From Olsenella sp. An285 (GTDB lineage Bacteria > Actinomycetota > Coriobacteriia > Coriobacteriales > Atopobiaceae), in assembly GCF_002159625.1 (NCBI RefSeq), contig NZ_NFIZ01000002.1, positions 186,001 through 250,000 on the forward strand: 64,000 bases of DNA, read 5' to 3'. The translations under genes and the position numbers were made by a program. The first letter of the stretch is position 1; each line of letters opens with the position of its first letter. Shown here piece after piece: positions 6,172 to 59,146 of the stretch. The notes beneath the pieces are model-generated. The model was not told the origin of the DNA. It was given only the letters and a program-made list of their open reading frames with translations, and made no database searches.

Positions 6172-6193
6172 GGGACGCCCCTTTCCTTCGGTC

Positions 6194-6222
6194 TGTAAAT
6201 TGGGGACTGTCCCCAATTTACA
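6194..6222. repeat. 29-bp palindrome with GGGGACTGTCCCC core (type I)
   Basis: TGTAAATTGGGGA and its reverse complement flank a single central base pair, so the palindrome is perfect apart from the centre. It lies in the divergent gap between the dehydrogenase and the C_GCAxxG_C_C gene. A near copy lies at 14046-14076, and shorter relatives at 20441, 31870 and 55687. Confidence 0.9.
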
Positions 6223-6263: not shown

Positions 6264-6716
6264 ATGCGTGACAGCGTGAGCATTGCGGCCGTCGAGGCCG
6301 CCGCAAGGAGCAACAACCAGCCCGGCCCGGACCACATGAACTGCGGCGAGTCCGTCATCGCGGCACTCTGGGACGCCTTCGAGCCGGACTTCCCGCGCTC
6401 CGTGGTGGCCGTGGGTGCCGGCATGGGCGCGGGCATCGGCGGCTCGGGCTGCATCTGCGGCGCGCTCGCCGGGGGCGTTGCGTTTCTCGGCCTCATGACG
6501 GGGACCAAGGAGCGCACCAAGCCACTTGCCGCCGAGCTGCACGACGCGTTCTGCGCGGGCACGGGGCACCGCACGCCCTGCTGCCGCGTGCTCACGCGCG
6601 GCATGGAGTGGGGGAGCGCCGAGCGCGTGGCCAGCTGCCAGGACCACTGCGCGCTCGCGGCGGGCGTCGCGGCGCGGATCCTCTGCCGCGAGCTCGAGGT
6701 GCGGGCGGAGGCGTAG
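6264..6716 (+). CDS. C_GCAxxG_C_C family protein
   Basis: A 150-residue protein of the C_GCAxxG_C_C family, a cysteine-rich group found in anaerobes and thought to be redox-related. The core reads GSGCICGALAGG (61-71). Further cysteines are at 27, 97, 106, 107, 125 and 129, matching the spaced Cys pattern that names the family. GAGGGGGAGCC before ATG 6264 is the ribosome site. The function is not known; a metal or disulfide role is plausible from the cysteines only. Confidence 0.88.
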   Translation: MRDSVSIAAVEAAARSNNQPGPDHMNCGESVIAALWDAFEPDFPRSVVAVGAGMGAGIGGSGCICGALAGGVAFLGLMTGTKERTKPLAAELHDAFCAGTGHRTPCCRVLTRGMEWGSAERVASCQDHCALAAGVAARILCRELEVRAEA

Positions 6717-6752
6717 GGCGCCGGGTTCTGCCTGGCATCTGCCTCGCGGCGC

Positions 6753-6819
6753 TCATCGCGCTTATCCGACCACTTCTCGTCCGATTTGGCCCTCTGCTGT
6801 GGTCGTCTGAGCGCGATGA
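6753..6819 (+). repeat. 67-bp palindromic element, copy 1
   Basis: The ends TCATCGCGC (6753-6761) and GCGCGATGA (6811-6819) are inverted repeats, and CGACCAC (6767-6773) pairs with GTGGTCG (6799-6805). The element would fold into one long interrupted hairpin. Copy 2 lies inverted at 7511-7577, with about 60 of 67 bases the same. The pair flanks the YdjM-like gene, whose ATG (6816) lies inside this copy. Confidence 0.88.
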
Positions 6820-7463
6820 ATGAGGGCGAGGCGCCTAGCAGCGAGAAGAACGGGGGGCACGTGACCGGGAGGACGCACGTCATTGTGGGCGCGGCGGCGG
6901 GAGTCGCCGCGGCGTCGGCGCTCGGAGGACCTGTCGCGGTGACGGAGCTCGCAGCGGCCGCGGCGGGCGGGGCGCTCGGAGGAACGCTTCCCGACCTCGA
7001 CGTTCGCGACAGCGCGCATCCGCTGCGTGACCGGCTCGCGCGCGTGGCGGCCGTGGCGCTGCTTGTCCTTGCCATCTGCTTGGACGCGACTGCGGGCTGG
7101 CCGCTCGCACGGCGCGCCGCGCAGGCCGGGCTCGAGTCCATCGCGCTCGGGGCTGTGGCCTTTGCCGCGCTCTGCTGCGCGGCGCGGCTCTCAGCCCACC
7201 GGTCCTTCTCGCACTCGCTTCTGGCGCTCGTGGGATTTGCCGCCGCGACCCGCCTAGCCTGCCCTCCGCTCGCCCCGGCGCTCGCGGCCGGCCTTGCCTC
7301 CCACCTTGTCCTCGACCTCTTCAACCACCGGCCGATTCGGCTGCTCTGGCCCGTTCGGCACGGCTTTTGCCTGGGGCTCTGCAAGACCGACGGCATCGTC
7401 GACGCGTGCTGCACCGCGGCGGGGCTCGTCGTGGTGGCTGGCGCTGCCCTTCTCGCGCTCTGA
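6816..7463 (+). CDS. YdjM/DUF457-type membrane-bound metal-dependent hydrolase
   Basis: A membrane protein of about 215 residues resembling the YdjM family of LexA-regulated, presumed zinc-dependent hydrolases. Support comes from TGRTHVIVGAAAG near the start, the metal-site-like GTLPDLD with Asp pairs, SAHRSFSHSLLAL (His-rich, between helices) and HLVLDLFNH near the C-terminus. At least four hydrophobic segments are present. The start is uncertain: ATG 6816 lies in the palindromic element and has no clear ribosome site, while GTG 6861 gives the more typical MTGRTHV start after GGGGGG. Substrate unknown. The gene between two inverted repeats may have been transposed or simply bracketed by repeat insertions. 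Confidence 0.72.
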   Translation: MNEGEAPSSEKNGGHVTGRTHVIVGAAAGVAAASALGGPVAVTELAAAAAGGALGGTLPDLDVRDSAHPLRDRLARVAAVALLVLAICLDATAGWPLARRAAQAGLESIALGAVAFAALCCAARLSAHRSFSHSLLALVGFAAATRLACPPLAPALAAGLASHLVLDLFNHRPIRLLWPVRHGFCLGLCKTDGIVDACCTAAGLVVVAGAALLAL

Positions 7464-7510
7464 CGCCCTTTCGTGTCGCCGCCCCTTCCGCCCGCGTCCT
7501 CCATTTGCGT

Positions 7511-7577
7511 TCATCGCGTCCAGACGACCACAACGGAGGGCCAAATCGGACGATAAGCGGTCGGATGAGCGCGATGA
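7511..7577 (-). repeat. 67-bp palindromic element, copy 2 (inverted)
   Basis: TCATCGCG (7511-7518) and CGCGATGA (7570-7577) bound a 67-bp element whose reverse complement matches copy 1 (6753-6819) at about 60 of 67 positions. It follows the YdjM-like gene by 47 bp. No transposase gene is near, so it behaves like a MITE or REP-type element. Confidence 0.88.
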
Positions 7578-7654
7578 ACGAGGGGGCGGGATGACGAGAA
7601 GAGCCCCCGCGCCCGTCCCTCTTGCCTGCGTGCGTGCTACACTACCTAACGACA

Positions 7655-7765
7655 ACGGGGGGCTGGCGCACGCCGGCTGAGATTGGGCCCAGGAGAGCGG
7701 ACGCGCGTCCGAGGGCGGCCCTGACCCAGGAACCTGATCCGGGTAATGCCGGCGTAGGGAAGAGC
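7655..7765 (+). promoter_or_regulatory. TPP (thiamine pyrophosphate) riboswitch
   Basis: The aptamer signature is clear: CTGAGA at 7677-7682, CCCTGA before position 7725, GAACCTGATCC at 7730-7740, GGGTAATGCC, then GGCGTAGGGAAG. This is the conserved thi-box core. An extended -10-like TGCTACACT ends at 7643. It precedes the thiamine-binding protein and ThiXYZ genes, so TPP should reduce expression of thiamine or precursor uptake. Confidence 0.96.
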
Positions 7766-7776
7766 TTCGCGCGCAA

Positions 7777-7813
7777 CGAGGCACCTACGAGAGACGGGGT
7801 GCCTCGAGCACCC
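7777..7813 (+). promoter_or_regulatory. Riboswitch expression platform, two exclusive hairpins
   Basis: CGAGGCACC (7777-7785) can pair with GGTGCCTCG (7798-7806). Alternatively GGGTGC (7797-7802) pairs with GCACCC (7808-7813) next to the ribosome site GGAAGGGAGGG (7814-7824). The two cannot form together. This fits translational or termination control; there is no T-run, so occlusion of translation seems more likely. That last step is inference. Confidence 0.6.
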
Positions 7814-10031: not shown

Positions 10032-10811
10032 ATGGCACAGGCTGGCGAGAAGAACGTGGCGCCCGCGCTCGAGGCGCGCGACCTCACGCTGTCCTGGGAC
10101 GGGGAGCACCTCGTCGTCCAGGGCGTTGACGTGACCGTCGCGCCCGGCGAGGTCTGCTGCCTCGTGGGACGTTCCGGCTGCGGCAAGACCACGATCCTGC
10201 ACGCGCTCGCCGGCCTCACGACCCCCATGGCCGGTCGCGTCCTCCTGCACGGGGAGGACGTGACCGGCAGGCCGGGCCGCGTGAGCTACATGCTCCAGAA
10301 GGACCTCTTGCTGCCGAGCCGCCGCATCATCGACAACGTGTGCCTGCCGCTCGTGCTCGCGGGCACGAAGAAGGCCGAGGCGCGCGCCAAGGCGGCGCCC
10401 TTCTTCGAGCGCTTTGGCCTCGCGGGCTCGGAACTCAAGTGGCCGAGCGAGCTCTCCGGCGGCATGCGCCAGCGCGCGGCCTTCCTGCGCACCTACCTCA
10501 TGGGCGCGGACGTGACGCTGCTGGACGAGCCCTTCTCGGCGCTCGACGCCCTCACGCGCACGGAGGTACGCCAGTGGTTCGTGGGCGTGGCGAAGGAGCT
10601 CGGGCTCTCAGCGCTGGTGATCACGCACGACGTGGACGAGGCCGTCTCCATGGCGAGCCGCATCTACGTGCTCGCGGGGGTGCCCGCCGTGGGCGAGCCG
10701 AGCCACGTCATCGGCGAGGTGGCGGTGACGCGCCCCGCGGGCGAGCGGAGCTTCGAGCTCACCGACGAGTACCTCGCCGCCAAGCGCCAGGTCATGGCAC
10801 TGCTGGGGTAG
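10032..10811 (+). CDS. thiZ: ABC transporter ATP-binding protein, ThiZ-like
   Basis: A 259-residue ATPase powering the ThiXY importer. It has Walker A GRSGCGKT (46-53), the signature LSGGMRQ (141-147), Walker B VTLLDEP (161-167) and a switch His in ITHDVDEA. The family is the SsuB/TauB type. The N-terminus MAQAGEKN is longer than usual and encoded by the GGCGAGAAGAAC word also seen at other starts. ATG 10032 lies 3 nt after the ThiY stop. It is the last gene of the TPP-controlled operon; a GGCGGGCGCCCGCC palindrome follows at 10826. Confidence 0.9.
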   Translation: MAQAGEKNVAPALEARDLTLSWDGEHLVVQGVDVTVAPGEVCCLVGRSGCGKTTILHALAGLTTPMAGRVLLHGEDVTGRPGRVSYMLQKDLLLPSRRIIDNVCLPLVLAGTKKAEARAKAAPFFERFGLAGSELKWPSELSGGMRQRAAFLRTYLMGADVTLLDEPFSALDALTRTEVRQWFVGVAKELGLSALVITHDVDEAVSMASRIYVLAGVPAVGEPSHVIGEVAVTRPAGERSFELTDEYLAAKRQVMALLG

Positions 10812-14045: not shown

Positions 14046-14076
14046 CTGCAAGTTGGGGACAGTCCCCAATTTGCAG
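14046..14076. repeat. 31-bp palindrome with GGGGACAGTCCCC core (type I)
   Basis: CTGCAAGTTGGGGAC pairs with GTCCCCAATTTGCAG around a single A, with one G-T position. It lies 4 bp past the VWA gene stop and 23 bp before the next start, inside the operon. It is closely related to 6194-6222. Confidence 0.9.
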
Positions 14077-14099
14077 AAACGGTTTGGGGGGGAGGACAG

Positions 14100-31129: not shown

Positions 31130-31867
31130 ATGATCCTCTTTCCCGCAATCGACCTGGTGGGCGGCCGCGTGGTGCGCCTCGCGCGCGGCGAGCGCGCCCA
31201 CATGGACGTCTACTCCGACGACCCCGCCGCCGTTGCGGAGTCCTTCCGCGACGCCGGTGCGGAGTGGGTCCACGTGGTCGACCTCTCGGCCACGCTGGAG
31301 GAGGACGACGCCGCCCGCGCCGCAAATGCTGCGGCCATCCGTGCGATCTGCTCTGTCCCCGGCATCTCCGTGGACGCCGGCGGCGGCGTGCGCGACCTCG
31401 CGGCGGTGGAGCGCCTGGCGGAGCTGGGCGTGCGCCGCATCGCCATCGGCACGGCGCTCGTGCGCGACCCCGCGTTCGCCGCTGAGGCCGCCCGCAGCTT
31501 TGGCGAGCTCGTGGTGGCGGACGTGGCGGCGCGCGGGGGAGAGGTGCGCGTGAACGGCTGGCGCGAGGGCGCCTCGCTCTCCGCAGACGAGCTCGTGGCG
31601 CGCCTCGCGGGGCTGGGCTACCGGCACCTGGTGTTCACGGATGTGGCGCGCGACGGCATGCGCTGCGGCGTGGACGCGGAGGTGTACCGTCACGTGGCAG
31701 AGGTCGCGGGCTTTCCCGTGGTGGCCTCGGGCGGCATCGCGAGCCTGGACGACCTGCGCGCCCTGGTCGCCCTGGGGCCGGGCGTGGTGGAGGGCGCCAT
31801 CACCGGGCGAGCCCTCTACGAGGGGTCCTTCTCGCTCGAGGACGCGCTCGCCGCCGCCCGCGCGTAA
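31130..31867 (+). CDS. hisA: ProFAR isomerase HisA
   Basis: A 245-residue TIM-barrel isomerase acting on phosphoribosylformimino-AICAR-phosphate. It opens MILFPAIDLVGGRVVRL with the catalytic Asp, and has SVDAGGGVRDL, IAIGTALV, the second catalytic Asp in VFTDVARDGM and the phosphate site ASGGIASLDD. ATG 31130 has TGGAGG upstream. This start lies 84 bp from hisH with a likely promoter between them. The related barrel HisF is at 33545. Confidence 0.94.
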   Translation: MILFPAIDLVGGRVVRLARGERAHMDVYSDDPAAVAESFRDAGAEWVHVVDLSATLEEDDAARAANAAAIRAICSVPGISVDAGGGVRDLAAVERLAELGVRRIAIGTALVRDPAFAAEAARSFGELVVADVAARGGEVRVNGWREGASLSADELVARLAGLGYRHLVFTDVARDGMRCGVDAEVYRHVAEVAGFPVVASGGIASLDDLRALVALGPGVVEGAITGRALYEGSFSLEDALAAARA

Positions 31868-31869
31868 CA

Positions 31870-31894
31870 TGACAAAGGGACAGTCCCTTTGTCA
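31870..31894. repeat. 25-bp perfect GGGACAGTCCC palindrome (type II)
   Basis: TGACAAAGGGAC, A, GTCCCTTTGTCA is perfectly palindromic about one base, followed by CGTTATGT as at 20441. It starts 2 bp past the hisA stop and 29 bp before the next start. Confidence 0.93.
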
Positions 31895-33431: not shown

Positions 33432-33517
33432 GGCTCGCCGGGCCCGTCCCACGCGGCGAGTCACGCGGTGAGCGAGCGAAGCGAGCGCCGAGCCGCGTGG
33501 GACGGGCCCGGCGAGCC
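33432..33517. promoter_or_regulatory. Perfect 26-bp stem in the hisF leader
   Basis: Positions 33432-33457 (start GGCTCGCCGGGCCCG) are exactly complementary to 33492-33517. The 34-nt loop contains a direct repeat GCGAGCG-AA-GCGAGCG. It ends 27 bp before the hisF ATG. It could be a terminator of upstream transcription, a leader structure or an insertion scar. Confidence 0.75.
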
Positions 33518-55686: not shown

Positions 55687-55711
55687 TGACAGAGGGACAG
55701 TCACTTTGTCA
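55687..55711. repeat. 25-bp GGGACAGTCAC palindrome (type II)
   Basis: TGACAGAGGGAC, A, GTCACTTTGTCA with two mismatches, then TGTTATGC. Same orientation and right flank as at 20441 and 31870. Confidence 0.85.
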
Positions 55712-55720
55712 TGTTATGCA

Positions 55721-55756
55721 GGGCCGCAGGTCTCGTCTGGGACTTGCGGCCCTTTT
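55721..55756 (+). terminator. Rho-independent terminator of the nan operon
   Basis: GGGCCGCAGGTC (55721-55732) pairs with GACTTGCGGCCC (55741-55752), one G-T pair, 8-nt loop, followed by TTTT (55753-55756). Confidence 0.9.
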
Positions 55757-59118: not shown

Positions 59119-59146
59119 GGCGAGAAGAACGACGGAGGGAGGACCC

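Follow-up and report, generated by a model that had tools for sequence, protein, structure and literature searches.

Two short palindromic elements stand in opposite orientation around a membrane protein gene in Olsenella sp. An285, and the locus raises the question of what these elements are, what spreads them, and whether they have moved the gene that they enclose or supplied its start. The window analysed is a stretch of 64,000 nucleotides of this genome (an Atopobiaceae MAG of 2.41 Mb in 33 contigs, referred to as G000), and most of the genomes compared with it are MAGs. The elements are assigned here to a family named A, and the features of the locus are the following (positions in the window):

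6264 to 6716, + strand: left neighbour, gene of a C_GCAxxG_C_C redox-type protein, taken as an orientation marker for the inversion
6752 to 6820, + strand: element copy 1 (arms at 6752-6771 on the left and 6801-6820 on the right, with the spacer between them at 6772-6800)
6861 to 7463, + strand: ydjM-family membrane protein gene (PF04307) starting at GTG 6861, inverted here relative to congeners
7510 to 7578, - strand: element copy 2, opposite in orientation to copy 1 (arms at 7510-7529 and 7559-7578, with the spacer between them at 7530-7558)
7646 to 7777, + strand: TPP riboswitch upstream of thiamine-type transport (thi) genes, taken as the right orientation marker

The inverted pair and the ydjM gene

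The preliminary description reported two copies of like size in opposite orientation, and these are present, with the unit corrected from 67 to 69 nt: 61 of 69 bases are identical between the inverted copies (63 of 71 with two extra bases), and the sequence outside the 69-nt unit is unrelated between them. In a repeat search of the window the pair ranked first among 104 inverted pairs (71 nt, 89%). The copies are foldable as had been claimed, with 16 of the 20 arm positions pairing in both; folding "end to end" was an overstatement, as 19 and 17 of the 34 mirrored positions pair over the whole unit. The hairpin fold is real but modest (DNA folding z-scores against shuffles of -2.35, -2.46, -1.42 and -2.64). 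A separate hairpin, with a perfect 26-bp stem and a 34-nt loop, is found at window positions 33432-33517.

An in-frame ATG does lie within copy 1, at position 6816, and the element had been proposed to supply the start of ydjM from there. This origin was rejected, the conserved start being the GTG at 6861, outside copy 1. In the congener G015, whose ydjM protein is 97% identical, copy 1 is absent at the orthologous site and copy 2 is present; because G015 retains the same conserved leader and GTG start despite the absence of copy 1, the start of ydjM does not come from the element.

Movement of the gene had also been suggested, and one of its two forms held. Import was rejected, since ydjM is present in 27 of the 31 genomes of the genus; inversion relative to both neighbours was confirmed, for this lineage only. 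The gene order in G000 is redox gene, ydjM and TPP riboswitch with thi genes, all on the + strand (the riboswitch match reaches 42.7 bits, below the Rfam gathering score of 54.3, with E 1.9e-6), and G015 has the same order, the TPP element having been read in its alignment. The thi genes or the riboswitch are visible at 21 of the 27 ydjM loci, namely in G000 and 20 other genomes, and in all of these 20 the thi genes point away from ydjM, which was therefore inverted in the lineage of G000 and G015. The flipped segment is the one bracketed by the element pair. Recombination between the two inverted copies of the window may have flipped ydjM, although no family-A element was seen at the ydjM locus of the eight other congeners examined; by this route G015 would have lost copy 1, or copy 1 would have arrived later. 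The one close comparison of a filled and an empty site, between G000 and G015, gave a difference of 113 nt, which exceeds the unit, with no clear target duplication.

A dispersed family of two-armed elements

The preliminary description had likened the pair to a dispersed repeat of the REP or MITE type, and further copies do occur throughout the genome, so that the opposite possibility, a pair unique to this locus, fails. The family-A arm, TTCATCGCGCTCAAACGACC, has 22 matches in G000 at up to three mismatches and none for the reversed pattern; at the same threshold there are three in the window, where 0.01 are expected. The genome holds ten two-armed elements, one element with a degenerate second arm and one half-site. 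The arms, of about 20 nt and inverted, are 49 nt apart in nine of the ten elements and 48 nt apart in one. The spacers differ at most loci and are common to the partners within two inverted pairs, that of the window and a second one, 1.36 kb apart, on contig C23; unlike the spacers, the flanks outside the unit are unrelated within these pairs. Elements sit between genes or at gene ends, their neighbours being convergent, co-directional or divergent, and several lie in upstream regions. A serine-hydrolase gene and a reading frame for a membrane protein appear to take their C-terminal codons from elements (L066:11077-11145 and L070:4980-5047). The 11-mer GCGAGAAGRAC occurs at 16 places of the window (for example 6841-6851, 10045-10055 and 59120-59130) against 0.13 expected, and close variants of it lie inside several element spacers.

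At up to two mismatches, the arm was found in seven of the 40 genomes searched, G000 included; one of the seven has a single match and belongs to another genus, probably by chance. The named matches of the element in a contig collection are all uncultured Atopobiaceae MAGs (six stretches). No phage record matches, nor did viral contigs give any exact match to the arm; a phage origin was rejected, as none of 17 pattern-bearing stretches in viral contigs encodes a relative. Orthologous elements keep their arms and their spacers drift; an example is the element that lies upstream of the gene for malic enzyme and is present in G000, G015, G016 and G006. No recent insertion or movement of elements was seen in the genomes compared.

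What keeps the arms alike can be read from 21 distinct elements, in which 38 cells are changed on one arm only and seven are complementary on both; it is therefore chiefly the sequence of the arms that is preserved, and their folding less strongly so. These figures bear on the idea that the elements are structured RNAs or bidirectional terminators with no protein partner, for which their ability to form hairpins would speak, together with the mirrored pairs of the spacer (88 of 294 against 67.6 in shuffles, a value reached in 2 of 2000). Compensatory changes are nevertheless few (seven against a permutation mean of 3.4, with 110 of 5000 permutations reaching seven) and strong RNA covariation was not found among the 21 elements; no Rfam family overlaps them, the TPP riboswitch being the sole nearby match, they lie between convergent, co-directional and divergent genes alike, and the arms are specific to a gene, as described below. 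RNA or terminator function by itself is thus a highly improbable account.

The family might alternatively consist of MITEs that descend from an insertion sequence encoding a DDE transposase and bearing terminal repeats that match theirs. Family-A elements resemble MITEs in being short, dispersed, non-coding units with terminal inverted repeats; they differ in that no parent transposase was seen and no target duplication is clear at the loci compared. At none of the 22 arm-match loci do family-A arms bound a recognised transposase, and no insertion sequence with family-A ends was seen near the arm matches of the 40 genomes, in surroundings read in part. Many unrelated arm families, moreover, accompany one gene family, and the probability of a MITE origin is very small. 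That no transposase is present, as the preliminary description stated, is correct for the ydjM locus, yet the same element brackets a nuclease-like gene elsewhere in the genome.

An AbiEi-like gene flanked by matched hairpins

The C23 pair brackets, in inverted orientation, the gene of a 365-residue protein that lies downstream of prfC and has prfC and an M20 peptidase gene as neighbours. The protein itself gave no match in Pfam, NCBIfam, PHROG or PADLOC. Its homologues have weak AbiEi matches (PADLOC AbiEi, 3e-5); the AbiEi_4 cut-off is passed by four of eight further homologues scanned, a Collinsella protein being among the eight, and AbiEi_4 matches reach 9e-10 in distant homologues from other Actinomycetota. 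DUF559 matches of two homologues are weak (0.023 and 0.079). In 26 aligned homologues E206, E210, D244, E258, D260, G261 and K264 are invariant, and a C-terminal signature D...ExDGxxK is conserved, its set D244, E258, D260 and K264 being what we take to be a PD-(D/E)XK-type active site. Judged from sequence, the C23 gene is predicted to encode a DNA-binding protein that resembles AbiEi and carries a nuclease signature of PD-(D/E)XK type in its C-terminal domain. A single-sequence structure model of it has a pLDDT of 33, and a search of solved structures by sequence gave none below E 0.4. No AbiEii (DUF1814) toxin gene is adjacent at the C23 locus scanned in G000. Between G000 and G015 the gene has a dN of 0.022 and a dS of 0.074, hence a dN/dS of about 0.30, which points to purifying selection. 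The homologue at the prfC locus of G016 contains a stop codon, and a second paralogue of G000 (L232) has no matched hairpin pair. Downstream of prfC in G009 and G018 (L174 and L175) other repeated, partly inverted sequences occur, with no nuclease-like gene.

Within the genus 29 of the 31 genomes have homologues; within Coriobacteriales 56 of 149 genomes do, from 20 of 77 genera, and within the phylum 41 of 396 genomes. The association of the gene with hairpins is well supported across Coriobacteriales. Matched hairpins lie on both sides at 23 of 35 loci of the genus against none of 400 random positions; when the order search is taken together with the Collinsella record, 18 of 31 loci have them (12 of 22 outside the genus). 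Counted by distinct homologue, 36 of 57 have them and 21 do not, against none of 1000 random positions and none of 23 ydjM loci; nine further loci bring the count to 39 of 66, where swapped flanks give 19 of 1500. The thresholds for matched hairpins were set after the first loci had been seen, two settings and three kinds of control were used, and the locus sets overlap. As a positive control of the detector, which leaves out loop-less palindromes, Y1 loci gave 6 of 25 only. Beyond Coriobacteriales the association is weak, and suggestive at most (3 of 10, where swapped flanks give 3 of 90).

The geometry is as regular as the presence of the hairpins. At one stringency 23 of 26 loci tried have hairpins on both sides, and in 22 of these 23 the spacing is equal on the two sides (49/49, 45/45, 52/52, 37/37, 30/30 or 62/62, among others); the exception is 67/66, and at one of the 22 the spacings are 44 with a single 45. 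In Collinsella aerofaciens six hairpins accompany the gene (WP_148332043.1), all with arms 43 nt apart. Arm sequence follows the protein: where two proteins are more than 70% identical their arms are alike in 15 of 20 pairs, and where they are less than 45% identical in 9 of 560, with a Mantel r of -0.54 that was reached in none of 5000 permutations.

Other arm families are dispersed in the same manner. Elements ending in CGAGCATGCC number 16 in G022, 19 in G011, 14 in G017, 10 in G006, 12 in G018 and 8 in G016, with one each in G013 and G009, none in 23 of the 31 genomes and none for the reversed control. A homologue with CGAGCATGCC arms is present in G022, G011, G017 and G016; in G018, despite its 12 elements, no homologue was found at 1e-8, and G006 has one homologue, with arms of another kind. 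This mismatch speaks against strict dependence on the gene, or for gene loss. Arms of the CGCCGAGTGTGCAC type are commonest in G043, G010, G024 and G045, which hold homologues with such arms, and the stretch flanking the Collinsella aerofaciens gene has at least 28 matching places in the same record. Further hairpin families of similar size occur in G000 (L064:7500-7571, L068:4768-4833, L070:977-1052 and L069:4904-4980), and one of them, TCACCATGTTTCTCCGGACA, resembles the arms that bracket the G016 homologue.

These data could reflect operators only, the AbiEi-like protein regulating its own gene at the adjacent hairpins and a small regulon through the dispersed copies, with no mobility. For AbiEi-type antitoxins, binding to inverted repeats of 23 bp, arranged in pairs within the promoters of their own genes, has been described (PMC7319586); the preservation of the arms by sequence over pairing and the position of several elements in upstream regions agree with such a role. 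It does not readily accommodate hairpin copies downstream as well as upstream of the gene, duplication of whole units, spacer included, with exact ends, up to 19 copies per genome with some between convergent genes, or the invariance of the nuclease signature. We regard regulation alone as unlikely, while giving it appreciable weight.

Relation to known systems and a candidate mechanism

REPINs are characterised, in the accessible part of the source, as inverted REP doublets with conserved ends, a spacer of constrained length and a RAYT partner (PMC3116915); likewise, GTAG-tagged REPs, RAYTs and their TIR-flanked relatives (PMC3733652) and TnpAREP (PMC8266576) have been described, RAYT/TnpAREP being the transposase partner of REP-type repeats in the portions available. 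The elements studied here share with REPIN/RAYT systems an inverted doublet of a short conserved sequence at a near-fixed distance with a variable spacer, dispersal between genes, the presence of the same sequence on the flanks of the partner gene, and several families per genome. They differ in a partner that is AbiEi-like with a PD-(D/E)XK-type signature and not an HUH/Y1 transposase, in a family-A arm with no GTAG-type tag, and in copy numbers of about 10-20 against the hundreds of REPINs. The system behaves like a REPIN system, yet two defining features, RAYT partner and GTAG tag, are missing, and it is not classed as REPIN.

A family of REPINs whose RAYT (Y1 transposase) was lost or is yet to be found, the nuclease-like gene being a passenger, would explain the REPIN-like geometry (PMC3116915, in the part available), and Y1_Tnp matches do occur in 28 of the 31 genomes of the genus, with five matches in G000. 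Nine Y1 loci were searched, five in G000 and four in G015, and none has family-A arms; they carry repeats of their own, mainly of the GGGACA or GGGACGTG kind. Family A is therefore not accounted for by RAYTs, and an origin from them was rejected for the loci searched; the arms, besides, follow the AbiEi-like protein over many lineages. A lost or hidden RAYT is accordingly a very unlikely source. Palindromes of GGGACAGTCCC type, the kind that brackets Y1 (RAYT-like) genes of G000, occur in the window at 6192-6222, 14047-14077, 31855-31894 and 55687-55726. In G015, L200:106-206 is a 101-nt palindrome with a 44-bp stem, resembling the palindrome at the Y1 locus G015:C57 of the same genome, and the matching site of G000 (L064:5713-5781) has a family-A element beside an ABC-F gene instead.

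Two other known systems resemble the AbiEi-like gene in part. The two 23-bp inverted repeats to which AbiEi binds are separated by 3 bp, and those in the pairs bound by Rv2827c by 13 bp (PMC7319586). The protein studied here may share a winged-helix N-terminal part of AbiEi type with these type IV toxin-antitoxin components, which bind paired repeats at their own gene; it differs in its C-terminal nuclease-type signature and in repeats that lie on both sides of the gene and are dispersed. With DUF559/Vsr-like endonucleases it has in common the D...ExDGxxK signature and weak DUF559 matches, a homology weakly supported, and it departs from them in its fusion to an AbiEi-like part and its tie to repeats. 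A literature search, mostly without subscription papers and preprints, found no paper connecting REP-like repeats with AbiEi, with DUF559 or with any other nuclease.

The reading that we consider probable, with considerable room for doubt, is that the window pair consists of REPIN-like miniature elements whose partner, the AbiEi-like protein with the nuclease signature, binds the arms and copies the units. It builds on the element family and its geometry, the gene within an inverted pair, the recurrence across Coriobacteriales and the co-variation of arm and protein, all seen directly; mobilisation or cutting by the protein is what we infer from them. By analogy with the binding of 23-bp inverted repeats by AbiEi-type proteins, two AbiEi-like molecules would bind the two arms, and the longer, fixed gap between arms of about 20 nt would suit a protein that is larger and ends in a nuclease domain. 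The nuclease domains would then act at or in the spacer, or on the extruded hairpin, breakage and repair would copy the unit into new intergenic places, and recombination of the two inverted copies in the window would flip the intervening ydjM.

A more specific version of this mechanism, which we put forward tentatively and think doubtful as it stands, is a natural paired-nuclease geometry like that of engineered paired nucleases, in which AbiEi-like/PD-(D/E)XK monomers would meet over a spacer whose length, and not its sequence, matters, and would drive RAYT-independent elements in Coriobacteriales and perhaps in other Actinomycetota.

Taken as a whole, the evidence suggests miniature mobile DNA of a kind not noticed before. 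If true, a second partner, from an antitoxin/nuclease lineage, would mean that REPIN-like systems arose more than once, and the system would account for many unannotated palindromes in gut Coriobacteriales. Each homologue, that of Collinsella aerofaciens (WP_148332043.1) included, would predict its own DNA site.
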